From assembly GCF_031598375.1 (NCBI RefSeq), contig NZ_CP123872.1, positions 2,724,501 through 2,788,500 of the forward strand: a stretch of 64,000 bases of DNA, read 5' to 3'. This DNA comes from Temperatibacter marinus (GTDB taxonomy: Bacteria > Pseudomonadota > Alphaproteobacteria > Sphingomonadales > Kordiimonadaceae). The position numbers were made by a program, and so were the translations under genes. The notes beneath the pieces are model-generated. The model did no database searches and was not told the origin of the DNA. It saw nothing but the letters and a program-made list of their open reading frames with translations. This document shows, piece by piece, positions 4,819 to 58,526 of the stretch (the first letter of the stretch is position 1; every line of letters starts with the position of its first letter).

Positions 4819-4842
4819 GCTATAACCTTTTCAATAACCTGT

Positions 4843-5202: not shown

Positions 5203-5228
5203 AAAAAGTCTTCCTTAGATGAGAGACA

Positions 5229-6536: not shown

Positions 6537-6655
6537 AGTTTTTGTCCTTTATTCAGACTTAACTTAAATTTGGTTTATATAGGAGAATAATGAGGCACTT
6601 GAAGTTTCATCCTAAACTAGATGATTTTGCCTTTCCTATGCATTCTCCAATCTCA

Positions 6656-8035: not shown

Positions 8036-8036
8036 C

Positions 8037-9071
8037 TTAATACTCTCCATTCGCAAGAACGTCTGTGTAGAGCTCAGACAGATCTGGCTCTGGACTTTGT
8101 TGTGCAAATTCTGCGGCATCCGCTACTATTTGTTTTGTCGCTTTATCAAGATCTTTCAACTGAGCTTCATCAGCGGCACCAGCCTTAAGAATCTTCTCTT
8201 TTAACTGTTCGATCGCATCCCGTTCAGACCGCATCTTTTTGACTTCGTCTTTGCTGCGATATTTAGCCGGGTCAGACATTGAATGACCGCGATATCTGTA
8301 GGTTTTCATCTCAAGGATGTACGGACCTTTTCCTTCTCGGCAGTGCTTCACAGCGCGGTCAGTCGCTTCGCGCACTGCAAGAACATTCATTCCATCAACC
8401 TGCTCACCAGGGATGCCGAAACCCTCGCCTCTTCTAAACAGCTCTGTCTCCTTAGACGCTCTCGCAACTGAGGTGCCCATCGCATACTGATTATTTTCAA
8501 TAATATAAATAACAGGAAGCTGCCAGAGAGCTGCCATATTATAGCTTTCGTAGACCTGTCCCTGATGTGCAGCCCCATCTCCGTAATAGGCAACAGATAC
8601 ACGATCTGTCTTCTTATACTTGTGCGCAAAAGCAAGCCCAGTTCCCAGAGAAACCTGTGCACCGACAATCCCGTGTCCACCGTAAAACCCATTCTCAGGA
8701 TCAAACATGTGCATCGAACCGCCCTTTCCTTTAGAACAACCGCCAATGCGACCGGTCAATTCTGACATGACAGCGCGAGGTTCTGTTCCAGCAAGAATAG
8801 CGTGACCATGAGCCCGGTAGGACGTAATAACATCATCGCCTTTGTCTAGACCGGATTGAATGCCTGTTAACACGGCCTCTTGACCGATATAGAGATGACA
8901 AAAACCACCGATCAAGCCCATGCCATACATCTGCCCAGCTTTTTCTTCAAAGCGGCGGATAAGAAGCATATCTTTATAAAATTGAAGCAATTCCTCATTT
9001 GAGGCTTTATACTCTGCCGTTTTTGCAGAGCGTTTCGCGGAAGTGCGTTTAGAAGCAGTTTTAGCAACCAT
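8037..9071 (-). CDS. pdhA: Pyruvate dehydrogenase E1 alpha
   Basis: Thiamine-diphosphate-dependent E1-alpha subunit that decarboxylates pyruvate. The 344-residue form starts at ATG 9071 (MVAKTASK) with AGGG upstream; a longer frame to 9146 has no support. Residues 164-166 GDG to 193-194 NN form the ThDP-binding motif, and the phosphorylation-loop-like [13 protein letters not shown] is present near the C-terminus. The first 20 residues are a basic Lys/Ser/Thr tail. It is the first gene of the PDH operon; the 220-bp upstream region carries a tandem repeat and a palindrome. Confidence 0.96.
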
Positions 9072-9146
9072 TAATAAGACCCTATTCACTATTATCTCTG
9101 GAATACTCTCCCACAGATGGGAAGATGCATCACAAAAATCACGCAC

Positions 9147-9163
9147 GCGATCATCACGATCGC
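9147..9163. promoter_or_regulatory. Palindrome in pdhA leader
   Basis: Perfect inverted repeat GCGATC-ATCAC-GATCGC, about 76-92 bp upstream of the pdhA ATG. It could be an operator for a PDH regulator or an RNA hairpin in the leader. No known binding consensus is matched. Confidence 0.4.
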
Positions 9164-9184
9164 CTGCGCACTATGATTCCATAA

Positions 9185-9202
9185 GTGATACTAGTGATAC
9201 TA
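9185..9202. repeat. Exact 9-bp tandem repeat upstream of pdhA
   Basis: GTGATACTA occurs twice in a row. On the minus strand each copy gives a TATCAC hexamer, and the copy nearer ftsB lies 17 bp after TTGCAA, so the repeat overlaps a plausible -10 region for the PDH operon. The rest of the 9072-9291 gap is AT-rich with nothing else recognised. Confidence 0.5.
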
Positions 9203-9291
9203 GGAAATTTGATAAATTGCAATAGACTTTAAGTTATTGTAATATAGTGATAATATATAATTAACCTACTTTTAGTTAATGGCAAATATCT

Positions 9292-9600
9292 CTAATTCAA
9301 AACGACAACTTCATCGACAGCAACAAAACCAAGTTTCTGCCTAACCTGTTCTTCAAGCAAATCCGGATCAACACGCTTCTCATCCATTAACGCAACTTGT
9401 CGTTTCAATCTTTGCTTATGCGTATTAATTGTATCCAGTTGCTGTTGATAGCGTGCTTGTTGCGCTTCCAACTTATCTAAAGCTGGCAGGCCATTTTCGG
9501 CTTGAAAGGCCTCAAGAGATAACCAGGTGACGCAAACAAGCGCCAACCCGATTAACCAAACCCGTCCCAAATGAAATTTTATATTTCTTAATTGTTCCAT
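9292..9600 (-). CDS. ftsB: FtsB/DivIC family septum formation initiator
   Basis: Small bitopic divisome protein expected to pair with FtsL and FtsQ. It has 102 residues: a short cytoplasmic N-terminus, one membrane segment at about 13-30, a periplasmic coiled coil at about 36-75 rich in Gln/Leu/Lys, and the C-terminal segment DLLEEQVRQKLGFV typical of the family. In related alphaproteobacteria ftsB lies between eno and pdhA; here it still precedes pdhA but eno is 25 kb away. No Shine-Dalgarno precedes the ATG, and a possible TTGATT/TCTATA promoter would put the transcript start at or near the ATG, suggesting a leaderless mRNA. Its promoter carries six GANTC sites. Confidence 0.9.
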   Translation of the reverse strand: MEQLRNIKFHLGRVWLIGLALVCVTWLSLEAFQAENGLPALDKLEAQQARYQQQLDTINTHKQRLKRQVALMDEKRVDPDLLEEQVRQKLGFVAVDEVVVLN

Positions 9601-9658
9601 GATTCGTATAGAATCATATTTGATTCATCGAATCAAGTTAATAATTTTGATTCGACTC
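9601..9658. promoter_or_regulatory. Cluster of six GANTC (CcrM-type methylation) sites on ftsB promoter
   Basis: GANTC occurs at 9601, 9611, 9622, 9630, 9649 and 9654, directly upstream of the ftsB start codon. Chance expectation for this palindrome is about one per 256 bp. In alphaproteobacteria GANTC is methylated by CcrM and can recruit GcrA to cell-division promoters. The sites overlap the only plausible -35 and -10 hexamers. Confidence 0.6.
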
Positions 9659-9674
9659 ATAATTTTTTTAAAAT

Positions 9675-10490
9675 TTAATTTAAATGCCAGCGGCTATGTA
9701 TATCTGACAGGACTTCAGTATGCCAAGGTATATCTAAGTGATTTTCACCTTCGATCGTTTTGAAAGAAACCGAGTTTTGATTTGACGACTCGTATAATGC
9801 CTTTCCACTCGCATAGGGCACAATTTTATCTTTCGTCCCGTGATAGATTATATAAGACTTGTCTTTGATTCGTGAAAGACGCAAGTCACTTCTCAGGGGA
9901 AATCTAGAAAACCATTCATGGACAAAATATGGATGACGTCGATATCCCATATCCACAACAGATTTGAACGGTGCAAAAACAATAAAATCTTTTATTCCTG
10001 TTTCAAGGGCAAGATGCGCTGCAAATGCACCGCCCATGGACCACGCCGCAACTTTGATATTCTCGGTGCCGTATTTCGTGGCAGCATGTTGGGACCAGTC
10101 TAGAGCATCTTCAAGCAGTCCCTCCTCTGTAAAAGCCCCTCTACTCTTTCCAAAGTTACGATAATCCATTGAAAGAACATCATATCCCAGCGCTAGAAAA
10201 GTTTTTGCCATTCTTTCTGAGTGCCCAATATTTCCAGCGTTTCCTTTAAAATAAAGCACTAGCTTTCTAGATTTTGATTTTTCTTTTACTTTAAATAACA
10301 CTCCATGAAGACTTACACCCTCCTTGTCTAGAGTTATAAATTCATGCGGCGTATCATAAGCATAAACATGGTCCATTTCGACAGGTGCAAAATTAAAAAT
10401 CAAATGGTGCTGAGCAAAATACACTCCTAGACAAAGAAGCAGGTAAGCCCCGGTCAATAGTTTGAGTAGTGTCTTAATAAGTTTTGGCAT
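9675..10490 (-). CDS. Membrane-anchored alpha/beta hydrolase (ABHD13/YfhR-like)
   Basis: A 271-residue serine hydrolase with one N-terminal membrane anchor (about 8-26). The fold is shown by FKGNAGNIGH (oxyanion region), the nucleophile elbow AWSMGG with Ser151, Asp221 in HGTKDKIVP and His251 in GENHLDI, all correctly ordered. The nucleophile motif has Ala in place of the first Gly of GxSxG. It resembles the ABHD13/BEM46/YfhR group, whose substrates are unknown. ATG 10490 is preferred because GGAAA precedes it; in-frame ATGs at 10502 and 10544 extend it. It follows holC by 98 bp on the same strand. Confidence 0.85.
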   Translation of the reverse strand: MPKLIKTLLKLLTGAYLLLCLGVYFAQHHLIFNFAPVEMDHVYAYDTPHEFITLDKEGVSLHGVLFKVKEKSKSRKLVLYFKGNAGNIGHSERMAKTFLALGYDVLSMDYRNFGKSRGAFTEEGLLEDALDWSQHAATKYGTENIKVAAWSMGGAFAAHLALETGIKDFIVFAPFKSVVDMGYRRHPYFVHEWFSRFPLRSDLRLSRIKDKSYIIYHGTKDKIVPYASGKALYESSNQNSVSFKTIEGENHLDIPWHTEVLSDIHSRWHLN

Positions 10491-10588
10491 GAGCTTTTCC
10501 ATGAAGATATGAACAGTGAATTTCTGCAGGGCTGTCGGAGACATCCCCTTACTAGCAGAGGTCTATTGATCTTTAGTTTTTTTGATCT

Positions 10589-11038
10589 TTAGGCTTTTTG
10601 ATCCCAACCACCCCCTGGCATCTGTTGCCAGTAGGACATTTCAAACCCTTTTTCTTTAAAGGCTTTCCAGTCAAGACGAGCGGCTGTCACAACCTCTTCA
10701 TTTTTCCCATCAAACATATATAGAATTCGTTTAAAAGGGTCAAAATCATCCCAATTATCTGCATCCAAAAGGATCAAACATTCGGCCTCATTTAGCCGAT
10801 GTTGTTGAGTTGTAATAAGAATTGGCTGAAGACTTACCTGAGGGCTGTCTTCTGTATCATGAGGCAGAAAAGCATCTGGTTTATAGGACCAGAGAAGCTC
10901 GTCAATTAGCGCACTCTGGTCAGTATCTTTTACTTTTACAACAGCTCTTAAACCAGCACTGATCACACGTTCCATCAATTTTGGAAGAGCTCCTTCAAGT
11001 CCTTCATTCTCCAAATGATAGAATCGTATATCAGGCAT
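10589..11038 (-). CDS. holC: DNA polymerase III chi subunit
   Basis: HolC links the clamp loader to SSB at the replication fork. The 149-residue protein shows the family N-terminus (DIRFYHLE), the DELLWSY segment, FLPHD and an LLDADNW-like strand. It lies 5 bp after pepA on the same strand, an arrangement conserved across proteobacteria, and its translation probably depends on pepA. The C-terminal PGGGWDQKA matches other alphaproteobacterial HolC proteins. Confidence 0.93.
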   Translation of the reverse strand: MPDIRFYHLENEGLEGALPKLMERVISAGLRAVVKVKDTDQSALIDELLWSYKPDAFLPHDTEDSPQVSLQPILITTQQHRLNEAECLILLDADNWDDFDPFKRILYMFDGKNEEVVTAARLDWKAFKEKGFEMSYWQQMPGGGWDQKA

Positions 11039-11043
11039 CAGAC

Positions 11044-12516
11044 CTAGCTTTCATGATTGTCTGCTACAAATCGATCTAAAAGACGCACACCAAAGCCCGT
11101 GCCGCCCTTTTCACTAAGAGGCAACCCCTTATCTGACCAGACTGTCCCAGCAATATCGATATGACACCACGGCACACCGTTCGTATATCTTTTCAAAAAC
11201 TGAGCAGCCGTGATTGACCCAGCCCCTTTACCGCCAATATTTTTCATATCGGCTGTATGGGTATTGATAAGTTTATCATAATCATCATGAACAGGCATGC
11301 GCCATACTTTATCACCAGTCACTGTCCCCGCCGCATATAGGTCATCAGCGAGTTCATCGCTATCTGAGAAAATCCCAGCATATTCATGTCCTAGAGCAAC
11401 AATCATGGCCCCTGTTAGCGTAGCAAGATCAATCATAAATTTCGGCTTAAATCGATCCTGTGTATACCACATAGCATCACAGAGTACTAAGCGCCCTTCA
11501 GCATCAGTATTAAGAACGTCAATAGTCTGGCCAGACATAGAGGTCACTATATCGCCTGGACGCTGTGCGTTCCCGGCAGGCATATTCTCTACAAGGCCAA
11601 CGACCCCGATCACGTTCACACGTGCTTTGCGAGCTGCTAAAGCTTTCATCAATCCAACGACCGTTCCAGCACCGCCCATATCCCATTTCATGGCATCCAT
11701 GCCAGCTCCAGGCTTCAGGGAAATCCCTCCTGTATCAAAAGTGACACCTTTTCCGACAAAGGCAATGGGTTGCTCGTCGCTTTTGTTCGCCCCATTCCAG
11801 CGCATAATGGCAAGTTTGGATTCTCGAACTGACCCCATACCCACAGCCAAGAGCGCTTCCATTCCCAGTTTAGTCATTTCTTCTTCACCAAGAATTTCGA
11901 TATCCACCCCAAAATCTGTAAGTTTTGCGACTTCATCGGCAAAACTCTCTGGGTGAAGTTTGTTACCCGGCTCAGAAACAAGATCGCGAGTCAAGAAGAC
12001 ACCTTCAGCAACAGCTTCTCTTACTTTAAAGGCTCCCCCTGCTTTCTTGGTATCTTCTGCAGCTATAGAAATAGTTTTTAAAATTGGAATCTTTTTCTTG
12101 GGCTCTTTGGTTCTATATTTATCAAAGCGATAGGATCTCAGCAACGCCCCTTCACCTACCCATGCAGCCTCTTCAGCAGAAAGGCCTTCAATAAAAACAG
12201 CCGCTTCTTTGCCCGATAATTGTTGTGAAGATGTGATTGTCGCACCAAGAGTGACATAATCAATCTCTTTCATCTTAGCCTTTTTTCCTAGGCCCATAAT
12301 CACTAGTTTATCAAAGCTACACCCATGAGGGGCTGGAATGGTAAAATCTGTTCCTTTTTTGCCCTGAAAGTCATGGATTTTTACAGCACGTTCCAGAGCC
12401 CCTTCCATGGTATCGTTAAGGCTTTTAACCAGTGCATTCTCTGGACAGTCTTGAGCAATTCCTACGATGACAATACCATTTTTAGGCAATGACGACGAAA
12501 TAAACTTAATGTTCAT
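11044..12516 (-). CDS. pepA: Leucyl aminopeptidase (M17)
   Basis: Dinuclear-metal cytosolic aminopeptidase that removes N-terminal residues from peptides. It has 490 residues. The N-terminal macro-like domain covers about 1-170, and the catalytic domain carries GKGVTFDTGGISLKP (metal-binding Lys and Asp), DMGGAG and the signature NTDAEGRL. It is cotranscribed with holC. Upstream it is divergent from lptD with only 182 bp between; lptF-lptG, usually found there in related bacteria, are absent. Confidence 0.97.
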   Translation of the reverse strand: MNIKFISSSLPKNGIVIVGIAQDCPENALVKSLNDTMEGALERAVKIHDFQGKKGTDFTIPAPHGCSFDKLVIMGLGKKAKMKEIDYVTLGATITSSQQLSGKEAAVFIEGLSAEEAAWVGEGALLRSYRFDKYRTKEPKKKIPILKTISIAAEDTKKAGGAFKVREAVAEGVFLTRDLVSEPGNKLHPESFADEVAKLTDFGVDIEILGEEEMTKLGMEALLAVGMGSVRESKLAIMRWNGANKSDEQPIAFVGKGVTFDTGGISLKPGAGMDAMKWDMGGAGTVVGLMKALAARKARVNVIGVVGLVENMPAGNAQRPGDIVTSMSGQTIDVLNTDAEGRLVLCDAMWYTQDRFKPKFMIDLATLTGAMIVALGHEYAGIFSDSDELADDLYAAGTVTGDKVWRMPVHDDYDKLINTHTADMKNIGGKGAGSITAAQFLKRYTNGVPWCHIDIAGTVWSDKGLPLSEKGGTGFGVRLLDRFVADNHES

Positions 12517-12698
12517 GATGGTCCCTCTCGGATAGTATTATTTTTATAATGATTGAGTGTCTTTGCCCTTTTATGGGCGTATTTGCAAATTAGATCAAGA
12601 TGAATAGGAATAAATTAGCTTTTTTTGGAGAAACTTCCATTGCCCTCTCTGCATGAAGACTGTATCAAAGGCAAAATTACATTTTTAAGGATCATTCC

Positions 12699-14870
12699 GT
12701 GTCTTGTGTATCAATGAAAAAACTGTTGCTTAAAGGGACAATACTCTCCTCACTTTGTGTGATGAGTGGTCTTGCATCAACGCCGATTTCAGCACAAGAA
12801 ACAAAGGTAGTCGAATTTGAAGCAGATCAGCTCTCCCATGATGACAAAACAGGAGAAGTCCTGGCTTTGGGACGCGTCAAATTGAACCGCAAGGGGTATA
12901 CGCTGGAAGCAGGTCAGATTCGGTATAATCCTAAAACAGGTAAGGCGGTTGCGACTGGTGCCGTAAAAATGACGGATCCAGATGGAAATGTCATTTGGTC
13001 TGATCGCATTGAGTTAGAAAACGACCTCCGGGATGCCTTTGTTAAAGATATTCGATTACTTTTAAAAGATGGTGCACAAGTCGCAGCCAATTCTGCCGTC
13101 CGTGATGAAGACACTGGAAAAATTACACTGAACAGAGCAGTCTATAGCCCCTGTGAAGTCTGTGAGCAGTCTGGGGAAGAACCATTATGGCAATTAAAGG
13201 CTGTCAAGGTAGTTCATGATAAAGGTAAGAGAAGGCTATATTATGATAATGCCTACTTAGAAGTTTTAGGACTTCCTCTCATGTGGCTTCCCAAATTTTC
13301 TCATCCAGATCCTACAGTTGACAGAGCGAATGGCTTCCTTCCCATTGAATTCAGCTCTAATAAACAACTCGGCTTGATCGTTGGTCTGCCCTATTACCAT
13401 AGCTTCAGTAAAAGCCGTGATGCAACCATCACACCTCTTCTCACGACAAAAGAAGGCTTAGTTCTCAAAGGAGAATATCGTCAGCACGTGGGCTATGGGC
13501 GGTATGAGGTCGTCGGGTCTTTGACCTATACGGACAAGCGCGATGAATTTAATGTGGATACAGGGGCGAATGAGTTTAGGGGGCATCTTTTCTCTCATGG
13601 TTATCTCGACCATAATAAAAATTGGCGTTCAAGTTATGAAATAAACTGGGCTTCTGATGACACTTACTTAAGACGCTATGATTTCTCGGATGATGATACT
13701 TTGATGAGTGATTTCACAGTTGAAGGTTTTTATGATCAATCCTATTTAACAGCAAGGACAATTGCTTTCCAAGGCTTAAGGATTGAAGATAATTCAGGCC
13801 TTACTGGGCATGCACTGCCCCTCATTCAGGGCGAATATGTGACCAATAATACACCTCTCGGCGGCACGCTATCTCTGTCGGCAGATGGCTTAATTCTGCA
13901 TCAACCTGATTGGGTGGACACAAAGCGGCTTTCTGCTCAGGCAGAATGGAAAAATAAAGAAATATTCAATAGCGGCCTTGTCTTAGAGACCACCCTATTA
14001 CTACGCGGGGATCTTTATGAGTATAGGTATGAGAATAATGCCGACTTGAATTTCTTTCCTGAGCCGGAAGAAGATACTTCCTTCTCTAGAGGATTATTCT
14101 TAGCTTCAAACACACTGAGCTTTCCTCTTATTAAGGTCACTGCAGACGCACAGCATAGACTGGAGCCTCTCGTTGATATCACCTATACACCGCAAAGAGA
14201 GCAAAGCCAGAGCCAGTTCAACTTCGATAGCCAAGCTTTCGAGTTGGATCAATATACGCTTTTTTCTCCTGACCGATTTGCAGGTTATGATTTATGGGAT
14301 GACACGAGTCGCTTTACGTATGGTCTCTCTTATGCCTTTCATAGTGACTCCCTGACCTTTGAAACTTTAATCGGCCAGAGTTACGCCATCAATAACCCTA
14401 GCGCAGACTTAACAGTTAACACAGGTTTGGAAGATAATTTTTCTGACTGGGTAACGGCACAGACTTTATCTTATAAAAATCATTTTACTCTTCATCAGCA
14501 ACTGCGATTGGATTCTGATGATTTGTCCATTAAGCGTCATCTTGTTGATGTGGGCTATGAGGATACAAAAACAGCGATCAATGTAAGTTACTTCAAATCA
14601 AAAGAAGAACGTTGGCAGCTCTACAGGGAAAATCGTGAAGAACTGAGAGTTTCAGGACGGGTTCAGTTGAAGAACAAACTCTGGCTTTCTAGCTCTCTAG
14701 TGCAAGACCTTACGAAGGGATGGGACGGAGTCGAATATGGTGCCGGCATAGAGTTTTTAGACGACTGTTTATCCATTAGTCTTCAATATCGTAAAAATTA
14801 CACACGAGACAGAGACATTGAGCCAGGAAATAGCATAATTTTTCGTATAAAATTGCTAAATTTGGGTTAG
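12699..14870 (+). CDS. lptD: LPS-assembly protein LptD
   Basis: Outer-membrane beta-barrel that, with LptE, inserts lipopolysaccharide into the outer leaflet. It has 723 residues: a signal peptide of about 33 (cleavage near ISA-QET), an OstA/LptA-like beta-jellyroll at about 38-145, then the barrel. Cys152/Cys155 (PCEVC) and Cys690 (LDDC) are typical of alphaproteobacterial LptD, and the C-terminus TRDRDIEPGNS to the last LNLG is canonical. GTG 12699 is chosen because AAGGA (12687-12691) is well spaced; ATG 12714 has none. Followed after 76 bp by surA, as usual. Nothing looks degenerate, which matters because other LPS genes are missing from their usual places. Confidence 0.95.
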   Translation: MSCVSMKKLLLKGTILSSLCVMSGLASTPISAQETKVVEFEADQLSHDDKTGEVLALGRVKLNRKGYTLEAGQIRYNPKTGKAVATGAVKMTDPDGNVIWSDRIELENDLRDAFVKDIRLLLKDGAQVAANSAVRDEDTGKITLNRAVYSPCEVCEQSGEEPLWQLKAVKVVHDKGKRRLYYDNAYLEVLGLPLMWLPKFSHPDPTVDRANGFLPIEFSSNKQLGLIVGLPYYHSFSKSRDATITPLLTTKEGLVLKGEYRQHVGYGRYEVVGSLTYTDKRDEFNVDTGANEFRGHLFSHGYLDHNKNWRSSYEINWASDDTYLRRYDFSDDDTLMSDFTVEGFYDQSYLTARTIAFQGLRIEDNSGLTGHALPLIQGEYVTNNTPLGGTLSLSADGLILHQPDWVDTKRLSAQAEWKNKEIFNSGLVLETTLLLRGDLYEYRYENNADLNFFPEPEEDTSFSRGLFLASNTLSFPLIKVTADAQHRLEPLVDITYTPQREQSQSQFNFDSQAFELDQYTLFSPDRFAGYDLWDDTSRFTYGLSYAFHSDSLTFETLIGQSYAINNPSADLTVNTGLEDNFSDWVTAQTLSYKNHFTLHQQLRLDSDDLSIKRHLVDVGYEDTKTAINVSYFKSKEERWQLYRENREELRVSGRVQLKNKLWLSSSLVQDLTKGWDGVEYGAGIEFLDDCLSISLQYRKNYTRDRDIEPGNSIIFRIKLLNLG

Positions 14871-14946: not shown

Positions 14947-16269
14947 GTGATTAACAGGCCTAAAAAGGACAAACAACTTTCTGACCTTTTAAAATCATTT
15001 GCAGCAGTTATGACATTTGCTGTTCTTGTTACTGCTATTTTGCCAAACTCAGTTGCCGCTCAACAGGATCGTCAAACATTCAACGCGGTTGAAGTTTTAG
15101 TGAATGATCAGCCCTTAACAAGTTTTGACATCAATCAGCGTTTGGCCCTTGTCGTCGCAGTTTCTGGTGGCGTGAAAACTCAAGAAGAGTTTGAAAAATT
15201 GCGCACTCAAGTTATTGAGAGCATGATTGATGAAATCCTTCAACTTCAAGAAGCTCAAGAATATAAAATTAATATCCCCCAAGCCCAACTGGATGATTAT
15301 TTTGCCCAGCGTGCTAGTCAAATCAACATGACCGCAGAGCAATATGAGCAAGCGCTTGTATCTATTCGATCCAGCAAGGCGACAATGATGCGCCAAATGG
15401 AAGCTGAAATTGCTTGGAGCCAAATCGTGAATGGCCTTCTTGGCCAATCTGTTGCTGTCTCAGATGAAGAAGTTGATGCGACAATTGAGCGGATTAAAGC
15501 CAACAAAGGCAAATACGAATACCGCCTTGGTGAAATAGTGCTCTTGGTCAGGAACACCGCCCAAGAAGAAAATGTTAAAACCAATGCCATGCAGATTGTG
15601 AGCCAGTTGCGCTCTTCTAAGGAAGTGCGCTTTCCAGATGTAGCGCGAAACATCTCAGCGTCTTCTACTGCAGCCGTCGGCGGGGACTTAGGCTGGATTA
15701 TTGAAAGTGAACTTGCTCCAGAAATTTTTGACGCCATTAAAGATCTTGACCTTGGACAATATAGCGATCCTGTACGTACTGCAGGCAGCTATAAAGTTTT
15801 CATGCTTTCTAATCGCCGCCGTGTTCTAAGTGCTGACCCGATGGACGTGCAAGTTTCACTAAAACAAATTTATATGACAACTGAAGATTTGACAGACCCT
15901 GAAAAAGAAAAAAAATTCAGAGACATCCTTCCTATTCTTAAGGCAGAGCAACCAGGATGTGGTCAGGTTGAAAAATATGCTGAGCGTGCTGGTAGCACCA
16001 ATAAAACAGAGGTCGGTATTGTTGCGTTTAAACAGATGACATCAGACTTACTCAATGGCTTGAGACATTTGAAAGACGGTGAAGCAAGTAACTTTATTAA
16101 GCTCGATGACGGCGAACGGATTATGTTTATATGTGGACGGACAGTCCCTGAGATTGCAGATCCTGACTTTGATGCCATCTTTGCTCAGATTGAAAATCAG
16201 CGTCTCAGTATGCGTGCTCGTCGTCACTTACGTGATCTTCGCCGTGAAGCTATTGTTGATGAACGTTAG
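14947..16269 (+). CDS. surA: Periplasmic chaperone / peptidyl-prolyl isomerase SurA
   Basis: Escorts outer-membrane proteins such as LptD and BamA through the periplasm. The 440-residue chain has a long N-terminus with a hydrophobic signal segment at about 15-38, a SurA N-terminal helical domain (LVNDQPLTSFDINQR onwards), a parvulin domain at about 180-290 starting RLGEIVLLV, and a second, more diverged parvulin-like domain. GTG 14947 is the start, with AAGGG upstream. It lies between lptD and pdxA in the conserved order. Confidence 0.92.
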   Translation: MINRPKKDKQLSDLLKSFAAVMTFAVLVTAILPNSVAAQQDRQTFNAVEVLVNDQPLTSFDINQRLALVVAVSGGVKTQEEFEKLRTQVIESMIDEILQLQEAQEYKINIPQAQLDDYFAQRASQINMTAEQYEQALVSIRSSKATMMRQMEAEIAWSQIVNGLLGQSVAVSDEEVDATIERIKANKGKYEYRLGEIVLLVRNTAQEENVKTNAMQIVSQLRSSKEVRFPDVARNISASSTAAVGGDLGWIIESELAPEIFDAIKDLDLGQYSDPVRTAGSYKVFMLSNRRRVLSADPMDVQVSLKQIYMTTEDLTDPEKEKKFRDILPILKAEQPGCGQVEKYAERAGSTNKTEVGIVAFKQMTSDLLNGLRHLKDGEASNFIKLDDGERIMFICGRTVPEIADPDFDAIFAQIENQRLSMRARRHLRDLRREAIVDER

Positions 16270-34065: not shown

Positions 34066-35352
<1,287 letters not shown>

Positions 35353-35423: not shown

Positions 35424-36629
35424 TTATAGTTCATATGTTTCACGCACGGTTTGCATGAGGAGTTCGAATTTTTTCTTTTCCCTATATGAAAGACCTCGCT
35501 CGTGAATTCCATAGGCTAGTTTCAACTCAGAATATTTGCGTGAAAGAATGGGGCGTTTTTCTTTTATCTTCCCTGGTGCATAAGAGTGCCAAAACTGAAC
35601 ATCTGTGAATTTTGCCTCGAGTTTTTCTTTATCTCCTAAGCTGAAATCCTGATTGGTCACATAGAGATATTCATCAAGACTATCTTTTAAATCAGTCCAT
35701 GAAACGGCACCTGAGTCTGCAAGAGCTCTGATTTTGCGGGTTTGCATCATAAAGATCTCTTTATGCGCTTCCTCCGCATAGAGCGTCTTTGCATAGACTG
35801 AAGCCCTATCATTAAAGGTATCCGCTACATCTATCATCGCAAGTTCAGCTGCTCGGTCTGCTGCTTGTGTTAATAATTCATAATAACTCTCTTGGGGCAA
35901 CCTCATTCTCACCGCGGTTAAGCCTTCGTTCCAAAAGCTTTCATAATTCTTTCGATCCCCTGCAGCCCCTGCCGCACGAGCCCGATTCAAGACAAGATCC
36001 GGATAAAATGCATGGGCAGAATCAAAGTGAACAAGCAAGCTTTTTAAATTGCTTTTTATAGAACCATATTGTGATTTTAATGCTTTCTCACTTGGATCTT
36101 CATCCAGCTTTTTAAGGAGGGCTGCAACTTGAATTTGTGCTTTTTCTGCTGCTTCACGTTTTTTTGCTAAAGCTTTAGCCTTTTTTTCAGCCTCTTTCTT
36201 TGCTTTTTTTTCTGCTTTCATTGCTTTTTTAACCGCAGCAACTTCCTCTTTACTCAGGCCTGTCTGTTCAACAGCCGCAGTTTGGGGCAGTGAATTTTCA
36301 ACGGGTTCATGTCTTGGTTCACCATGAGGCGTTGGATTTTTCTTCTTATCGCCAAACCCAAAAAAACCCATAACACGACCAAAGAATCCTTTGCGTTTTG
36401 CCGTCTCTGCTTTTGGCCGTTCTTCCGTCGTTTGTTTAGGCTTTTTTTCAGATGATTTTTCAGTCTTAGATTGCTGTGTCTTTTCTTCTGAAGCTGACGA
36501 TGATTTCTTCTCTATTTTTTTAGCAGTCTCGCTTTTCTTGGGCGCAGGTTTATAATTTAAATCGTCATCAGCAAATCCTGCGAACGAAACAGACGCAAAA
36601 AAAGATAATAATACCAAACACTTAATCAT
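35424..36629 (-). CDS. Exported Lys/Glu-rich protein with coiled-coil region, unrecognised
   Basis: A 401-residue protein of unknown family. It has a signal peptide (about 1-18), a low-complexity segment of Lys, Ser, Glu, Thr and Pro at about 22-75, a short Phe/Gly patch (GFFGRVMGFFGFGDKKK), a very Lys/Ala/Glu-rich probable coiled coil at about 125-175, and a helical C-terminal half with tetratricopeptide-like Ala/Leu/Tyr spacing but no clear repeat. The start at 36629 has GGGAG upstream; the longer frame to 36680 is not needed. It occupies the position between pyrG and eno. It could be a periplasmic scaffold or envelope protein; no function is claimed. Confidence 0.7.
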   Translation of the reverse strand: MIKCLVLLSFFASVSFAGFADDDLNYKPAPKKSETAKKIEKKSSSASEEKTQQSKTEKSSEKKPKQTTEERPKAETAKRKGFFGRVMGFFGFGDKKKNPTPHGEPRHEPVENSLPQTAAVEQTGLSKEEVAAVKKAMKAEKKAKKEAEKKAKALAKKREAAEKAQIQVAALLKKLDEDPSEKALKSQYGSIKSNLKSLLVHFDSAHAFYPDLVLNRARAAGAAGDRKNYESFWNEGLTAVRMRLPQESYYELLTQAADRAAELAMIDVADTFNDRASVYAKTLYAEEAHKEIFMMQTRKIRALADSGAVSWTDLKDSLDEYLYVTNQDFSLGDKEKLEAKFTDVQFWHSYAPGKIKEKRPILSRKYSELKLAYGIHERGLSYREKKKFELLMQTVRETYEL

Positions 36630-36696
36630 CGGGGCCGCTCCCTGCAAAATTTTCCATATTTCATTACTTATACTAAGCAAGGATCACGCCAATCAC

Positions 36697-36743: not shown

Positions 36744-38384
<1,641 letters not shown>

Positions 38385-52232: not shown

Positions 52233-53519
52233 ATGTCAAACGACACTATGAAAATTTCAGGCAATGGCACTGAAACAGAGAGCCAAATTTTTGAAGGAAC
52301 AATTGGCCCTAAAGTCGTAGACATTCGCAAACTCTATGCAGAAACTGGGATGTTTACATTTGATCCTGGATTTACTTCTACAGCCAGTTGCGAATCTAAA
52401 ATTACTTATATCGATGGGGATAAGGGTGAACTATTATATCGTGGATATCCAATCGAGCAGCTTGCGGACAAGTCTGATTTCATGGAAGTCTGCTATGTAT
52501 TGCTCTACGGTGAACTTCCCTCTCCTGCAGAAAAAGAAAAATTCCTAAGCGATATTACCTACCATACAATGGTTCACGAACAAATGAGCCGTTTCTTTGC
52601 AGGCTTCCGTCGTGACGCTCACCCTATGGCCATTATGGTTGGTGTTGTTGGTGCTCTGGCATCATTTTATCATGACAGTACTGACATTAATGACCCCCAT
52701 CAGCGCATGGTTGCGTCCTACCGTCTTATTGCCAAGATCCCAACGATTGCTGCGATGGCTTATAAATATTCTGTGGGCCAGCCATTTGTGCACCCAAAGA
52801 ATAATCTTTCATATGCAGGGAACTTCTTGAATATGATGTTCTCTGTACCTGCTGAAGACTATAAAATTAGCCCTACACTTGAAAAAGCTATGGACCTTAT
52901 CTTTATTCTTCATGCGGATCATGAACAGAATGCTTCAACATCGACTGTGCGTCTCGCGGGCTCTTCTGGGGCGAACCCCTTTGCTTGTATCGCCGCAGGT
53001 ATTGCTTGTTTATGGGGGCCTGCGCACGGCGGTGCGAATGAAGCTTGTCTAAATATGCTTGAAGAAATTGGAACTGTTGATCGAATTCCTGAGTTTATTG
53101 CACGTGCGAAAGACAAATCTGATCCTTTCCGTCTTATGGGCTTTGGACACCGTGTTTATAAAAACTTTGATCCTCGTGCGACAGTAATGCGCGACACAGC
53201 TCATAAAGTACTTGATGAACTTCAGATTGATGATCCACTTCTTGATGTTGCGATGGAACTAGAAAAAATCGCCCTTGAGGACGAGTATTTCGTTGCAAAG
53301 AAACTCTACCCGAACGTAGATTTCTATTCAGGTATCATCCTGAAAGCAATGGGATTCCCAACTGAAATGTTTACGGTTCTGTTTGCTTTAGCAAGAACTT
53401 CAGGCTGGATTGCTCAGTGGAAGGAAATGATTGAAGACCCAACACAGAAAATTGGACGTCCGCGTCAGCTTTATACAGGCTCGCCTCGCCGGGAATATAT
53501 CGATCTCGACAAGCGTTAA
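52233..53519 (+). CDS. gltA: Citrate synthase
   Basis: Condenses acetyl-CoA from the PDH complex with oxaloacetate. It has 428 residues of the type II, NADH-sensitive-like length. Catalytic residues lie in [21 protein letters not shown] and [19 protein letters not shown] precedes the ATG, 69 bp after gltX. A strong terminator follows. Confidence 0.98.
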
Positions 53520-53545
53520 GTTAATAATAACCTAAAATTGTCTAC

Positions 53546-53575
53546 AACACGCCTCTTCGGAGGCGTGTTTTTTTT
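53546..53575 (+). terminator. Intrinsic terminator after gltA
   Basis: Perfect 10-bp stem AACACGCCTC/GAGGCGTGTT with a TTCG tetraloop, followed by a run of T residues. It lies 26 bp past the gltA stop. Confidence 0.95.
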
Positions 53576-53608
53576 GAGGGCTGCGTTTCAATGATAAAAT
53601 ACACTATC

Positions 53609-53821
53609 TTAGTCATCATGCTGTTTTTTTCTCCGCCTTCCGGAGAGTCTATCAATGAGATATGATGATGAAGATTGATTAACATCTTTATACTTACCTC
53701 CATTAATATAATCACTATCTCCTATGCCAATGATAGCTTCTTCTTCGCTGCTGCTGTCAAAGTCTTCTTCAATCCAGTCGTCGCGATCCGAATAGTTATT
53801 TTCCCCAGACATATCTGCCAT
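53609..53821 (-). CDS. Small acidic orphan protein with basic C-terminus
   Basis: A 70-residue protein I do not recognise. The first 45 residues are rich in Asp, Glu, Ser and Tyr (DDWIEEDFDSSSEEE), the C-terminus has a basic patch (GRRRKKQ). No signal peptide or membrane segment. It looks real because a strong site, AAAGGAG, lies 7 bases before the ATG and it sits alone between two terminators. It occupies the place between skp and gltA where related bacteria carry lpxD-fabZ-lpxA-lpxI-lpxB. The 226-bp gap upstream (53822-54047) is AT-rich and otherwise holds only the skp terminator. Confidence 0.6.
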   Translation of the reverse strand: MADMSGENNYSDRDDWIEEDFDSSSEEEAIIGIGDSDYINGGKYKDVNQSSSSYLIDRLSGRRRKKQHDD

Positions 53822-53993
53822 AACTTACTCCTTTACTAATACTGAGCAATATAATCACACACTTTTTTAGGGTGAATATACTACTATAAGTTAGTATAAT
53901 GGGTAATATCCTAAGATAGTCTTAAGAGAAGCAAGAAGGCCTGCATAGAGATAGGAACAATTTTCATTGAATGCTACATAGCAGTAAGACAAG

Positions 53994-54022
53994 AAAAAAG
54001 GGCCGACAAAAAGTCAGCCCTT
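53994..54022 (-). terminator. Intrinsic terminator after skp
   Basis: On the minus strand AAGGGCTGAC/GTCGGCCCTT (10 bp, one G-U) with a 5-nt loop is followed by a U-run, 26 bp past the skp stop. It marks the end of the rseP-bamA-skp transcript. Confidence 0.9.
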
Positions 54023-54047
54023 AACATATAATAGTTATGAGAAACGA

Positions 54048-54656
54048 TTATTTTTTCTCAGCATCTTTCTTAGCATCCGCTGCAGGCGCGTTGTTGTTTG
54101 CTGCAGGGCGTGTCATAGATATACTAACAGCTGGTAAGCTATTATTCAGATCTTCAATCATTTCAGTGGTTTTATCAATACCAGCTGCATGACGGATAAC
54201 AGTGCCTTTATAAAGAATGATTTGAGCTTTATATTTTTTCAGCAGAGCTGTTGTAATCGGCTTAATTGCACGATCGATCTCGCGGTTAGCTTCTGTCAAA
54301 ATTGACTCATACCGAGATCTTAAGATCATAAGATTACGTGCTGCTGTTTTCACTTTTGTGTCCAAAGCTTTCATGTCTTCTTCGTATTTCTTCTGGCCTG
54401 TGATCGCTTTTTTGCTTTCAATCTCTTTGGCTTCATTAATCCAACCACCCTGACGCTGATCCACATAATTATTTAGTGTGGTAATCTGGTCTCGCATGGC
54501 GGCTGTCTTAGAGAGAAGGTCTTTATATGCTTCAGCTTCGTTCTGAATACGCTGACCATCCAAAATAAGAATTTGTGCATGAGAGGCACCTGCTAGAAGT
54601 AGAGCAGAAATTAAGGCTGCAAATGACAGCTTCAGTGTCTTCATAATTTTATTCAT
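54048..54656 (-). CDS. skp: Periplasmic chaperone Skp/OmpH
   Basis: Holds unfolded outer-membrane proteins for BamA, encoded just upstream. It has 202 residues: signal peptide (about 1-27, ending SHA-QIL), long helical arms rich in Lys, Glu and Gln, and a C-terminal Ala/Asn/Lys-rich tail. AGGA precedes ATG 54656; ATG 54644 is a possible shorter start. It is the last gene of the operon because the usual lpx genes do not follow. Confidence 0.88.
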   Translation of the reverse strand: MNKIMKTLKLSFAALISALLLAGASHAQILILDGQRIQNEAEAYKDLLSKTAAMRDQITTLNNYVDQRQGGWINEAKEIESKKAITGQKKYEEDMKALDTKVKTAARNLMILRSRYESILTEANREIDRAIKPITTALLKKYKAQIILYKGTVIRHAAGIDKTTEMIEDLNNSLPAVSISMTRPAANNNAPAADAKKDAEKK

Positions 54657-54707: not shown

Positions 54708-57353
54708 TTAGAAGGATGTACCAATATTAAATTGTAGCGTTTGTGTACGATCACCAAACTGCCTGCGAAGATTTTTAGTTAAGTCGATACGGAATGGTCC
54801 GAATGGCGACTGCCAGCTAAACCCAATACCAATTGCTGCCCGTGGTTTCCAATTATCCCCTATGATACAATCTGTTTCAAAGGCAGCCCCTGTAATGTCT
54901 TCTCCAAAAGCACCATTTTGACGCCCTTCTGCGACCCGGTTAAGATAATTTTCAACTTGGCTATAGCCAAATGCACATTGATCAAGACGCACATCAGTTC
55001 CCCATAATGAGCCAACATCAAGGAAAGCACTTGCGTTAATGCCCATTTCAAGAGCCGCATCGCCAAGAGGGAAGAACAGTTCCGCTCGACCAACATATTG
55101 CTTGGTACCCCCAACAGAGTTACCTAGGTTCAACTTGCCTGCACCAAGGTCATCAAGATTAACTCCCGAAGCTGTTCCAGAGACAATCGTGCCATAAAAA
55201 CGGCGCGGTCCAACAGCATTCACATCAAAACCCCGCAGTTGAGGTCCACCAAGGAAAAGACTGTCATTCAATCGAACACGTTGTCCAATCCCTTTGATCC
55301 AGCTTCCTTGAGCAGAAAGACGCAAAGTCCACCCATTGATGGGCGTCCAATAATTATCAAAATTAACACTAGATTTTAGATATTTAACATCGCCGCCTAA
55401 ACCTGCATAATTTTGTGAGAAGTAAAAGGCGCGACCCGCTGTAGGACGGAGGTAGTTATTCCGAGAATCAAAGCCCAGAGTATACCCAATAATTGATTGA
55501 TTATAGGTTCCAAGAGAAGAGCCATAAACAGGGTCAGTTATATTGAAATTCACAGAACCGTTAATTTGGCTACAGGCTTCTAGACGCATATCACGATCAA
55601 GCTCTAGATATCCAATTTGCTCGTCTGTCAGTTGGTCTGTATCCACATCAATATAGCGCCCCGTAGTAATATCATAACGAATAAGCCCTAGGCAGCTGTC
55701 AATCTGCGATGTAGATAGACGAACATTATCAAATCGGAATGTATAATTCCCTTGATAGGTCCAAAACTCACCAAGAGCAGCTCCCATCCTCAGGCTAAAG
55801 CCTTTACTATCACTCTCGTAAGGTGAGGCATATCTATCACTATTGGTTGTTCTGCGGTAGAATATATCTGCTCCGGCAGCAATATTTCTGTCTAAGAAAT
55901 AAGGTTCCGTAAAGCTCACATTTGCAGACTGCTGATAGCCAGACAAATTCATAGAGAAGCCAAGCCTTTGGCCTTTACCCATAAAGTTTTTCTCATTAAT
56001 TGAGAAATTAAAGATGAAGTTTTCAATACTAGAGAAACCAATTCCAAAGTTCAAATCACCTGTGGATTGCTCTTCAACACGTACATCTACTTCCATGCGA
56101 TCAATGGCAGAGCCTTGTTTGCGCTCAACTTCAATACCCTCTGGGCGGAAGAAACCCAGACGTTTCAAACGATCTTCAGAACGCTTAATATTAAAGGAGT
56201 TAAAGGCATCCCCTTCTTGGAGACGAAACTCACGACGTATTACTTTATCAAGTGTGCGAACATTTCCATGAATATTGATCCGCTCAACATAGACACGCGG
56301 CGCTTCAAGAATCGTAAAGTTATATTCAATTGTACGCTCTTCTTTATTTCTTTTTGGCTTCGGCAAAATGTCTATGAAAGCATAACCCTGTGCACCAGCC
56401 AAATCTGTCAAAGTTTCTTGAGAATTCTCAATCGCTTCCTGGCTATAAACTTCCCCTTCTCTAACTCGAAGGAAAACTTTAAAGAGGTCAGCATTCACAT
56501 CGCGAATTTGACTTTCAACAGTCACTTTACCAAATCGATAGATCTCACCCTCATCAACAGTATAGTTGATAATAAAGCTACTACGGTCTGGCACCAATTC
56601 TGCTACAGCAGAAATAATTCTAAAATCTGCATACCCTTCATTGAGATAAAAATTACGCAGCTGTTGCTGGTCATACAAAATTTTATCGGGGTCATACGTG
56701 TCGCCACTAGAGAAAATCTTCCACCAACGTGATTCTTTTGTAACGAGTACATCTCTAAGGTCGCCGTCAGAAAAAATCTTATTCCCAAGGAAGTTAATTT
56801 TTGACACTTTCGTCTTAGGACCTTCTTGAATTTCAAAGACCACATCCACACGGTTTTGAGATTGTTGGACAACTTTTGGCTCAACAATTGCGGCAAATCG
56901 ACCTTTAGAGCGATAAAGTTCAAGAATGCGATTCACTTCTGCCTTCACTTTTGCACGGGTAAAGACACTTCTTGGGCGAATGCGAATTTCTTCTGTTAGC
57001 GCCTCATTATCAAGTTTCTTATTACCTTCAAAAATGATCCGGTTAATAATCGGGCTTTCTTGAACGACAACAACAAGTACCGTCCCTTGGATATCGAATT
57101 TCAAATCCGCAAAAAGACCTGTACTAAACAGGCGTTTAAAACTGTTGTTTAGTTCCGCTTGGTCAAAAGCATCACCGGCGCGCACGGTCATATACTGAAG
57201 GATGGTTGCCCCTTCGACACGCACGTTACCCTGCACTTGAATTTCAGTAATAACTGGCATCTGCTGCTGCTGAGGTGCTTGCGCAGAAACCGACAGTGAA
57301 ACTGACGTAACAACTGTCAAAAGAACAAATGAGAGTGCCCAAATATTTTTCAT
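54708..57353 (-). CDS. bamA: Outer-membrane protein assembly factor BamA
   Basis: Core of the BAM complex that inserts beta-barrels. It has 881 residues: signal peptide (about 1-24), five POTRA domains to about residue 420 and a C-terminal barrel ending in the aromatic NIGTSF. It is longer than a typical BamA because of extra barrel-loop sequence, which carries two Cys pairs (SCLG and EACSQ; DQCAF and DCIIG). ATG 57353 is chosen over an in-frame TTG at 57362; neither has a strong ribosome site. It follows rseP by 60 bp. Confidence 0.96.
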   Translation of the reverse strand: MKNIWALSFVLLTVVTSVSLSVSAQAPQQQQMPVITEIQVQGNVRVEGATILQYMTVRAGDAFDQAELNNSFKRLFSTGLFADLKFDIQGTVLVVVVQESPIINRIIFEGNKKLDNEALTEEIRIRPRSVFTRAKVKAEVNRILELYRSKGRFAAIVEPKVVQQSQNRVDVVFEIQEGPKTKVSKINFLGNKIFSDGDLRDVLVTKESRWWKIFSSGDTYDPDKILYDQQQLRNFYLNEGYADFRIISAVAELVPDRSSFIINYTVDEGEIYRFGKVTVESQIRDVNADLFKVFLRVREGEVYSQEAIENSQETLTDLAGAQGYAFIDILPKPKRNKEERTIEYNFTILEAPRVYVERINIHGNVRTLDKVIRREFRLQEGDAFNSFNIKRSEDRLKRLGFFRPEGIEVERKQGSAIDRMEVDVRVEEQSTGDLNFGIGFSSIENFIFNFSINEKNFMGKGQRLGFSMNLSGYQQSANVSFTEPYFLDRNIAAGADIFYRRTTNSDRYASPYESDSKGFSLRMGAALGEFWTYQGNYTFRFDNVRLSTSQIDSCLGLIRYDITTGRYIDVDTDQLTDEQIGYLELDRDMRLEACSQINGSVNFNITDPVYGSSLGTYNQSIIGYTLGFDSRNNYLRPTAGRAFYFSQNYAGLGGDVKYLKSSVNFDNYWTPINGWTLRLSAQGSWIKGIGQRVRLNDSLFLGGPQLRGFDVNAVGPRRFYGTIVSGTASGVNLDDLGAGKLNLGNSVGGTKQYVGRAELFFPLGDAALEMGINASAFLDVGSLWGTDVRLDQCAFGYSQVENYLNRVAEGRQNGAFGEDITGAAFETDCIIGDNWKPRAAIGIGFSWQSPFGPFRIDLTKNLRRQFGDRTQTLQFNIGTSF

Positions 57354-57413
57354 AAAACCCAACTTATAATCCAGCCCGTATTTGTTATTGCATTCTTGGC
57401 GCCTGAAAATGGC

Positions 57414-58526
57414 CTAAGACACCAAGGATTGCAAGTCATTCAATGTTACAACAACCATTAAAAGTATGATCAAACCAAATCCTATAATAAAACCAGCCTC
57501 TTGAGCCTTTTTATTGATTGGTCCGCCCTTGATAGCCTCTAGTCCATAATAGAGCAGATGTCCACCATCTAGTACGGGAATCGGTAATAAATTCATAATT
57601 CCCAGACTTAAGGATAAAACGGTGACGATTGATAACCAGTCCAAAAAGCTTCTGCTCGCGGCATCACCCATAATTTGGACCATTCCTACAGGTCCTTTAA
57701 CTTCTTTTATAGACCTTAAACCTAAGATCAGTTGACCAATATTTCTAACCATTAGTCCGATCTGATCCCCAGTTGATCGAGCTCCTTCTGCAAGCGCACC
57801 AAAGAGACCATACTGCACGACCTTATATGTACCCGAAGGTCTCACCCCAAGATAGCCTTTTGCATATTGGTTCCCAAAACGATCTTCCATAAAACGCTTG
57901 TCCACAATTGCTTTGAGTAAGATTGTTTGTGTGCCTCGTTGAACCGTAAAGTCCATCGGTCCACCAGGTTGCATCAATATTTCAGTTCTAACCTGAGTGA
58001 AATTCGATATCTCCCGGTCATTCACTGCTATGATCACATCGCCAACTTGGAAGCCCGCTCGATCTGCAGCAGACTTTTCTTCGACAAAAGAGACATCTGC
58101 ATCAACAAATACTTTACCATTCGCATAGGTAAACCCTGCAAAGATTAAGACTGGCAGCAGTAAATTCACTGCAGGTCCAGCTGCGACAACCAAAGCTCTT
58201 TGCCATAAAGGTTTATAGTGAAGACAATCTTTCTTCTCTTCATCTGTTAACCCTTCGACATGCTCACCAGGATTAGAAGCGGCCGAAGCATCCCCAAAGA
58301 ATTTCACATAGCCACCAAGAGGAATCGCGGAAAGACGCCAACGGGTACCTGATTTCGCTGTATAGCCGTATATTTCTTTTCCAAAGCCTATTGAAAAAAC
58401 TTCAACGCGCACGCCGAAAAGACGGCCCACGCTATAGTGACCCCATTCGTGAACAAAAACCAGCAAACTAAAGCCCCCAATAAAGGCTAAAAGAGAGAGG
58501 GCTATAAATCCGAAATCAAACTCCAT
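57414..58526 (-). CDS. rseP: Site-2 protease RseP/MmpA
   Basis: Intramembrane zinc protease used in envelope stress and cell-cycle proteolysis. It has 370 residues. The zinc motif HEWGH is at 26-30, a single PDZ domain (GFQVGDVIIAVNDREI) sits in the middle, and the third zinc ligand is in NLLPIPVLDGGH. About four membrane segments. In Caulobacter the homologue MmpA is part of cell-cycle control. It lies 5 bp after dxr. Confidence 0.96.
   Translation of the reverse strand: MEFDFGFIALSLLAFIGGFSLLVFVHEWGHYSVGRLFGVRVEVFSIGFGKEIYGYTAKSGTRWRLSAIPLGGYVKFFGDASAASNPGEHVEGLTDEEKKDCLHYKPLWQRALVVAAGPAVNLLLPVLIFAGFTYANGKVFVDADVSFVEEKSAADRAGFQVGDVIIAVNDREISNFTQVRTEILMQPGGPMDFTVQRGTQTILLKAIVDKRFMEDRFGNQYAKGYLGVRPSGTYKVVQYGLFGALAEGARSTGDQIGLMVRNIGQLILGLRSIKEVKGPVGMVQIMGDAASRSFLDWLSIVTVLSLSLGIMNLLPIPVLDGGHLLYYGLEAIKGGPINKKAQEAGFIIGFGLIILLMVVVTLNDLQSLVS

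Follow-up and report, generated by a model that had tools for sequence, protein, structure and literature searches.

The stretch of DNA analyzed here, 64 kb in length and referred to below as the window, carries a 528-bp gap between gltA and skp (53520..54047), the usual place of lpxD-fabZ-lpxA-lpxI-lpxB. The gap is bordered by gltA, encoding citrate synthase (52233..53519, plus strand; NF004126, 775.3 bits, cut-off 505), and by a skp/OmpH-like chaperone gene (54048..54656, minus strand), which matched its family weakly (PF03938, 20.9 bits, cut-off 32.4) and was named from its place after bamA. Beyond skp lie bamA (54708..57362, minus strand; TIGR03303, 713.8 bits, cut-off 297) and rseP (57414..58526, minus strand; TIGR00054, 278.9 bits, cut-off 147.6). 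Within the gap there is an acidic ORF of 70 amino acids without an assigned function (53609..53821, minus strand), with an AAGGAG motif 6 bases 5' of its ATG as judged by eye. This ORF had no match in Pfam or NCBIfam and no relative among the GltA loci listed (at least 80; E 1e-6). Terminator-like hairpins were found 3' of gltA (53546..53569, plus strand; 10 pairs followed by a T run) and 3' of skp (53998..54022, minus strand), and the bamA-skp block therefore seems to stop at skp. The initial annotation described this interval as holding a lone 70-residue ORF with the five lpx/fabZ genes missing, and both the ORF list and tblastn agree with it. Queries taken from a named Rhizobium locus, in which gene names were assigned from order and resemblance, gave zero matches for LpxB, LpxI, LpxA, FabZ, and LpxD in the 64-kb window (tblastn, E 1e-6), and no convincing remnant of fabZ was detected by tblastn in the gap.

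We scanned named genomes for GltA and obtained at least 80 loci, a set from which the records closest to our genome may have been left out. Among the matches listed for these loci, BamA lay within reach of GltA in 37, and LpxA, FabZ, and LpxD were located between GltA and BamA in 35 of the 37, with all five genes present in 30, which bears out the earlier statement that an lpx-fabZ block normally occupies this place. The two exceptions among the matches listed, Kordiimonas gwangyangensis and an alphaproteobacterial MAG (L156), share the order GltA-FabZ-Skp-BamA, in which fabZ alone was kept. Kordiimonas gwangyangensis was also the most similar GltA locus among the matches listed (87%). The window goes further than both, with fabZ missing at the site too. 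A half-emptied lpx site was additionally observed in an LPS-less genome, G070 (L141, G070:C16:31001-51000, 8060-10235), where bamA-like, skp-like, and fabZ genes are followed by a divergent LpxB-like gene. This LpxB-like match is weak (93.7-105.4 bits, cut-off 190), and G070 is without LpxC, LpxA, and WaaA. Because our genome, Kordiimonas/L156, and G070 retain different genes, the lpx site has been emptied to a differing degree in each lineage.

Gram-negative cells are usually coated on the outside with lipopolysaccharide (LPS). Our genome (G000) is a single contig of 3,184,799 bases (3.18 Mb) rated 100% complete, and a genome-wide search for LpxC, LpxA, LpxB, and WaaA returned no match anywhere in it. 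LpxC was above the cut-off in 0/31 genomes (our own, 18 of the same family, and 12 of the same order), the sole sub-threshold match among them being one of 20.8 bits in G014. Across the order, LpxB and LpxA were each found in 0/32 genomes and WaaA in 2/32 (G025 and G027, not G000). As controls, the LpxA, LpxB, and WaaA searches were each positive in the 7/7 LpxC-positive genomes included, and all four proteins were detected in E. coli and Caulobacter. The two WaaA-like Kdo transferase matches (122-128 bits; G025:C4, L139, and G027:C39, L140) occur in genomes that have no match for LpxC, LpxA, LpxB, or KdsA. For LpxC, LpxA, LpxB, and WaaA, this is loss rather than relocation. With respect to the missing Kdo2-lipid A pathway, searched through these four proteins, G000 fits the LPS-less Sphingomonas-type group. 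The initial annotation had offered, as an alternative to relocation, the guess that Kdo2-lipid A is altered or absent as in sphingomonads with glycosphingolipids, and absence with a sphingolipid in its place is supported: the four proteins are missing from G000, and serine palmitoyltransferase (SPT) is present with companion genes. It had also pointed out that a full gene set elsewhere on the chromosome would speak for relocation; none was found for the lpx genes searched or for waaA.

The usual position of kdsA is between pyrG and eno. In the window, kdsA is missing between eno (34066..35340, minus strand) and pyrG (36744..38375, minus strand), and a 418-aa ORF without an NCBIfam match occupies the expected position (35424-36680, minus strand). 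The earlier report of a missing kdsA was correct for the interval between pyrG and eno, but the gene is not gone from the genome: a copy scoring 368.8 bits (cut-off 314) is present at G000:C1:181951-182715. This copy belongs to a run of kdsD-, kpsS-, kpsC-, kdsB-, kdsC-, and kdsA-type genes (L132, G000:C1:172001-192000, 4119-10778) in a genome without WaaA, and with KdsA, KdsB, KdsC, and KdsD all found in this capsule-type cluster, the claim that the Kdo genes had disappeared had to be dropped. KdsA was matched in 19/19 genomes of our own family, the match in G006 being split into two sub-threshold pieces, and was above the cut-off in 0/13 other genomes of the order, with one sub-threshold match in G023. 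Matches for KdsA, KdsC, KdsB, and KpsC were clustered in the 5/5 relatives examined. We considered whether the Kdo genes point to LPS that is still made and rejected this on account of their KpsC/KpsS-like neighbors; Kdo in G000 probably serves a capsule linker.

These results bear on the possibility that the LPS genes were simply relocated and that ordinary Kdo2-lipid A is still made. The occurrence of kdsA, kdsB, kdsC, and kdsD at another site, together with that of LptF and LptG away from lptD, would be in keeping with such relocation. However, LpxC, LpxA, LpxB, and WaaA were unmatched in a one-contig, 100% complete genome while the controls were positive, and the Kdo genes stand with KpsC/KpsS-like genes, an arrangement fitting capsule use. 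We consider relocation extremely improbable.

The window also retains lptD, encoding the outer-membrane translocon of the Lpt bridge (12699..14870, plus strand; PF04453, 175.1 bits, cut-off 22.4). Its left neighbor is pepA (11044..12516, minus strand; NF002077, 712.6 bits, cut-off 471) and its right neighbor a surA-like peptidylprolyl isomerase gene (14947..16269, plus strand; NF008038, 71.5 bits, below the cut-off of 394). The 182-bp gap between pepA and lptD (12517..12698) is the lptF1-lptG1 site in many LPS-bearing alphaproteobacteria. LptF and LptG were detected at G000:C1:2278395-2280661 (LptG, 275.5 bits, cut-off 240; LptF, 237.8 bits, cut-off 230), and their clade, F2/G2, is not that of the pair usually adjoining lptD. 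The initial annotation was right that no lptFG lies between pepA and lptD, but the sphingolipid region contains an LptF and an LptG of another type, and its broader claim that the export genes are gone fails with both proteins above the cut-off. Of what it had counted as three independent gaps, one is a loss, another is a loss in a genome that has a different paralogue, and the third is a relocation; its side remark that lptD is intact became the informative part.

The remaining bridge components, LptC, LptA, and LptB, are encoded in a row ahead of an rpoN-like gene (named by eye) at a separate site. LptB scored 372.2 bits (cut-off 240), LptA 66.1 bits in NCBIfam (cut-off 71.7) and 71.3 bits in Pfam (cut-off 20.4), and LptC a marginal 20.7 to 21.2 bits (cut-off 21). 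LptB, LptC, LptA, LptD, LptF, and LptG are all present in G000, LptC marginally so. SPT is encoded approximately 8 kb from lptF/lptG (NF047599, 604.8 bits, cut-off 500); with NF047603, the model for alphaproteobacteria, its score of 598.9 bits was below the cut-off of 670, and its best PDB matches were entries named serine palmitoyltransferase. Genes for a fatty acyl-AMP ligase and an acyl carrier protein are located near SPT together with an epimerase-like gene, and an acyltransferase-like gene lies near lptG, beyond a 507-aa ORF without a family match (Acetyltransf_1, 18.9 bits, below the cut-off of 20.7). As regards ceramide synthesis, SPT is above the cut-off in G000 and shares its region with AasR-, CerR-, AcpR-, and CerS-like genes, these four names being drawn from resemblance to the Caulobacter region and from general family matches, with SPT alone passing an enzyme-specific cut-off. 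Its gene content gives the G000 system the look of an Lpt machine, but with LpxC, LpxA, LpxB, and WaaA all missing from the genome, ordinary LPS cannot be what it carries.

We analyzed the co-occurrence of these genes in a class-wide sample of 193 genomes with completeness of at least 95%. LpxC was found in 166/193 and was missing in 27/193. Three of the latter (G071, G074, and G130) were rejected as LPS-less since LpxA, LpxB, and WaaA are present in them, which reduced the set from 27 to 24; G070 stays in the set of 24 despite its weak LpxB-like match. The three rejected genomes also have LptD and LptFG, and their missing LpxC match may reflect an assembly gap or an unrecognized deacetylase. 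SPT was present in 19/24 LPS-less genomes and absent from 5/24. LptD and LptFG were found in 18/19 LPS-less genomes with SPT versus 0/5 without it (Fisher p = 1.4e-4, kinship ignored). Counted by family, the same contrast (12 vs. 4) gave p = 5e-4, or 2.7e-3 when the mixed family f55 was scored as lost, again with kinship ignored. LptC, for which the model is marginal, was detected in 15/19 LPS-less genomes with SPT, in 0/5 without SPT, and in the 16/16 LpxC-positive genomes included; with this marginal model it also went undetected in G070, G127, and G201 and, among the relatives, in G001, G003, and G023. Two families contain both states, f26 (G048 with LPS, G145 LPS-less) and f75 (G179 with LPS, G097 LPS-less).

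For comparison, 38 of the 166 LpxC-positive genomes were chosen mainly on assembly quality, ahead of the class searches for LptD, SPT, and LptFG. The LPS-bearing genomes with SPT (G099, G121, and G158) carry 4 LptF/G each (3/3), and exactly 2 LptF/G above the cut-off were found in 34/35 LPS-bearing genomes without SPT, three of which carry a third, sub-threshold match. The outlier is G044, an LPS-bearing genome without SPT that has a second, very divergent LptF/LptG pair.

One LPS-less genome, G077, departs from the pattern: SPT and its neighbors are present, and no match was obtained for LptD, LptF, LptG, or LptC. Its SPT locus is without an LptFG pair, and the same-family genome G166 has the pair between phosphoesterase-like and acyltransferase-like genes. 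This case contradicts a strict rule, so Lpt would not be strictly required for a sphingolipid envelope, or G077 may have another route. G077 is a one-contig genome of 5.4 Mb, and ORFs judged by eye to be transposase- or integrase-like lie near its SPT locus (L142-L143, G077:C1:1490001-1530000), as does a Cas9-like ORF, also recognized by eye (L143:7122-10580).

We built trees of LptF/LptG domains from fetched loci, with 120 rows and then with 156, and the domains resolved into F1, F2, G1, and G2. In the 156-row tree, all domains of 34 LPS-less genomes (33 LptF and 34 LptG, 67/67) fell in F2 or G2. These genomes comprise 18 of the class sample, our own included, and 16 further relatives; for G009, G017, and G027, which are among the LPS-less genomes of the tree, SPT status was taken from a match in the fetched loci. 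Seven additional copies from LPS-less relatives likewise fell in F2 or G2, and the tree leaves out some extra copies in relatives (e.g., those of G010, G014, and G029, and the third in G209). All regular-pair domains of 34 LPS-bearing genomes without SPT (34 LptF and 34 LptG, 68/68) were placed in F1 or G1, these genomes being 31/35 of the sample (without G091, G129, G148, and G186) together with G071, G074, and G130. Each of the LPS-bearing genomes with SPT has one F1G1 and one F2G2 pair (3/3), and the second pair of G044 fell outside F1, F2, G1, and G2. Support for the G2 clade in the larger FastTree was 83 (57 with one G044 row), and IQ-TREE without the G044 pair gave clean F1/F2 (37 vs. 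41) and G1/G2 (37 vs. 39) splits with an SH-aLRT of 100. LptF2/LptG2 form a clade distinct from canonical LptF/LptG, and our own pair stands with sphingolipid genes.

The gene context of the pairs was assessed with six genes of our own sphingolipid region as tblastn queries (E 1e-8), a fetched stretch being counted when it held at least one match. A sphingolipid-region gene was found near LptF2G2 in 18/18 LPS-less class genomes, 14/16 further relatives, and 3/3 LPS-bearing genomes with SPT; the two relatives without one are represented by L123, a 3.5-kb contig, and L129. No such gene was found near regular LptFG in LPS-bearing genomes without SPT (0/17 loci), near the first pairs of LPS-bearing genomes with SPT (0/3), or at later loci (0/19); the one positive among the 20 later-fetched loci was the odd pair of G044 (L243). 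LptF2G2 lies far from SPT in G028, G209, and G201, and the two are on separate contigs in G087 and G174. Extra F2/G2-type copies in LPS-less relatives (L113, L121, L130, and L131) have no sphingolipid-region gene nearby (0/4 loci) and possibly serve further lipid classes.

A different cargo has to be weighed here, in which the Lpt bridge was kept not for a sphingolipid but for another glycolipid or for a substitute for lipid A that unrelated enzymes produce. Four loci of relatives contain F2/G2 copies lacking a nearby sphingolipid gene, and the capsule-type Kdo cluster indicates that other surface glycans are present. Against this, LptF2G2 accompanies sphingolipid-region genes in all 18 LPS-less class genomes, and copy number in LPS-bearing genomes tracks SPT, with 4 LptF/G in 3/3 genomes having SPT versus exactly 2 in 34/35 lacking it. 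We regard another cargo as unlikely and a sphingolipid as the preferred candidate.

The pairs also differ in their position relative to lptD, whose own neighbors are conserved. Among the matches listed, some of them from partial stretches, LptG1 adjoins LptD at 13/13 LPS-bearing versus 0/35 LPS-less loci, and PepA stands directly beside LptD at 25/35 LPS-less loci among the matches listed. By coordinates, LptD has one or more LptF/G genes no farther than 5 kb away in 28/38 LpxC-positive genomes versus 0/18 LPS-less genomes; with 28/38 showing it, this adjacency is frequent, not universal, in LPS makers.

The odd pair of G044, an LPS maker, is part of a run that is a candidate for a third lipid (L243, G044:C2:491001-511000, 3996-14368). 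The run contains genes for an SPT/BioF-family enzyme (325 bits for BioF and 275 bits for SPT, neither of them reaching its cut-off), an inositol-3-phosphate synthase-like protein, a short-chain dehydrogenase, LptF- and LptG-like proteins, a glycosyltransferase, and a phosphatidylinositol-phosphate-synthase-like protein. In this one case, the run looks like a candidate inositol-lipid pathway in which a third lipid would be exported through a dedicated LptFG gate.

We compared individual residues, with the LptF and LptG of E. coli K-12 serving as the numbering reference. The coupling arginine of LptF, R292, is conserved in 36/37 F1 and 41/41 F2 sequences, and that of LptG, R301, in 35/37 G1 and 39/39 G2 sequences. 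This conservation argues against the notion that LptD and its partners are functionless remnants disappearing after LPS loss. G077 shows that the Lpt set can indeed vanish in a sphingolipid maker, but LptD was found in 31/31 genomes of the order sample (our own and relatives), mostly as open frames of approximately 700 codons or longer, and LptA, LptB, and LptC persist in our own genome. Moreover, the five LPS-less genomes without SPT are without LptD or LptFG. We consider decaying remnants very unlikely and a working bridge the better reading.

Among 356 LptG columns, the two largest charge shifts from G1 to G2 occurred at E. coli K41 and K40. The K41 column is basic in 34/37 G1 and 3/39 G2 sequences, with D or E in 28/39 G2, and the K40 column is basic in 31/37 G1 and 1/39 G2 sequences, with D or E in 26/39 G2. 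In G158, an LPS-bearing genome with SPT, one G2 has ST at positions 40/41. According to the consulted parts of a report on a Shigella structure, LptG K41 and K40 touch the inner core and 4'-phosphate of LPS (PMC6744409); the consulted parts of another report describe K40 and K41 as not conserved and K40E/K41E as without effect on E. coli growth (PMC5548808). Of the other LPS-contact residues, LptG K34, K62, R133, and R136 were rejected as diagnostic markers, being mostly non-basic in alphaproteobacterial G1 too, and LptF R33 was rejected because it is basic in both types (F1 30/37, F2 39/41). The largest LptF charge shifts fell at positions other than the contacts named in the consulted parts of PMC6744409, and mean net charge hardly differs between F1 (7.2) and F2 (6.7).

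LPS-less sphingomonads with sphingolipids in place of LPS are already known, as the consulted parts of three papers state (PMC11324152, PMC10964400, and PMC11165598). G000 resembles bacteria with this Sphingomonas-type envelope in that it is an alphaproteobacterium in which lipid A genes were not found and SPT is present. It differs in keeping a Kdo/KpsC/KpsS-like cluster and in having Kordiimonas as its nearest GltA locus among the matches listed (87%). In Caulobacter crescentus, the consulted parts of PMC11324152 place LptC2/LptF2/LptG2 in the sphingolipid region CC_1168-CC_1152, which includes aasR, cerR, acpR, spt, cerS, lptF2, and lptG2. That 2024 paper proposed, without a test, that LptF2/LptG2 help move phosphosphingolipids to the outer membrane, and it gives orthologues for Sphingomonas wittichii and Zymomonas (PMC11324152). 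The same parts state that the route of bacterial sphingolipids to the outer membrane is unknown and that transport was not investigated there, and they discuss neither first-pair loss nor what becomes of LptD when a genome lacks LPS (PMC11324152).

G000 shares with Caulobacter a second-type LptF/LptG in a region of spt, cerR, aasR, acpR, and cerS. Caulobacter, however, has LPS too, and F2/G2 are second versions there according to the part of the source consulted, whereas in G000 F2/G2 are the only pair; our tree holds no named Caulobacter sequence, and the three LPS-bearing genomes with SPT and both pairs act as a stand-in. Compared with the E. coli Lpt system (LptB2FG-C-A-DE), G000 has LptB, LptC, LptA, LptD, and LptF/LptG family members with the coupling arginines kept, but it has no ordinary LPS to carry, its lptFG lies apart from lptD, and the LptG K40/K41 columns are mostly D or E in G2. 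No paper dealing with LPS loss in Kordiimonas-like bacteria, F1/F2 replacement, or a sphingolipid-translocon role of LptD turned up in a search of open-licence literature that excluded preprints and most of the subscription journals. Kordiimonas envelopes were likewise without a paper there, and PMC11324152 was the only one found for LptF2/LptG2.

Taken together, the gene content suggests that an old LPS machine may have been re-used for a different lipid. We propose, with a probability of roughly three in four (0.77), that this lineage lost LPS and now has an outer leaflet based on sphingolipid, the Lpt bridge being retained and re-fed via LptF2G2. A sphingolipid would have taken the place of LPS; the canonical LptF1/LptG1 pair is gone from beside lptD, and an LptF2/LptG2 pair is present in the sphingolipid region. 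LptB and LptF2G2 would pull the finished sphingolipid out of the inner membrane, it would then be pushed along LptC-LptA to LptD, and LptD would place it in the outer leaflet, as it does with LPS elsewhere. The gap at 53520-54047 would be one scar of this replacement, marking the loss of lpxD, lpxA, lpxI, and lpxB between bamA-skp and gltA; fabZ would have been left behind in Kordiimonas and have gone from the site as well in our own genome. For LPS-less alphaproteobacteria more broadly, we find it fairly probable that LptD acts as a sphingolipid translocon behind a swapped LptF/LptG gate, with two basic positions that face lipid A now acidic and with the lpx and lptFG sites bearing the scars of the takeover. 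Perhaps the bridge is common to several surface lipids and each of them enters it through a separate LptFG gate, as G044 may illustrate.

This natural replacement makes the proposed sphingolipid role of LptF2G2 testable. It amounts to nature's own subtraction, in which LPS-less lineages keep one LptFG type and the rest of the bridge, and the five without SPT lost LptD and LptFG. It predicts which LptF/LptG would carry which lipid, offers LptG 40/41 as positions to swap, and implies that LptD should matter in bacteria without LPS. These findings also bear on lipid A being dispensable in some Gram-negative bacteria.
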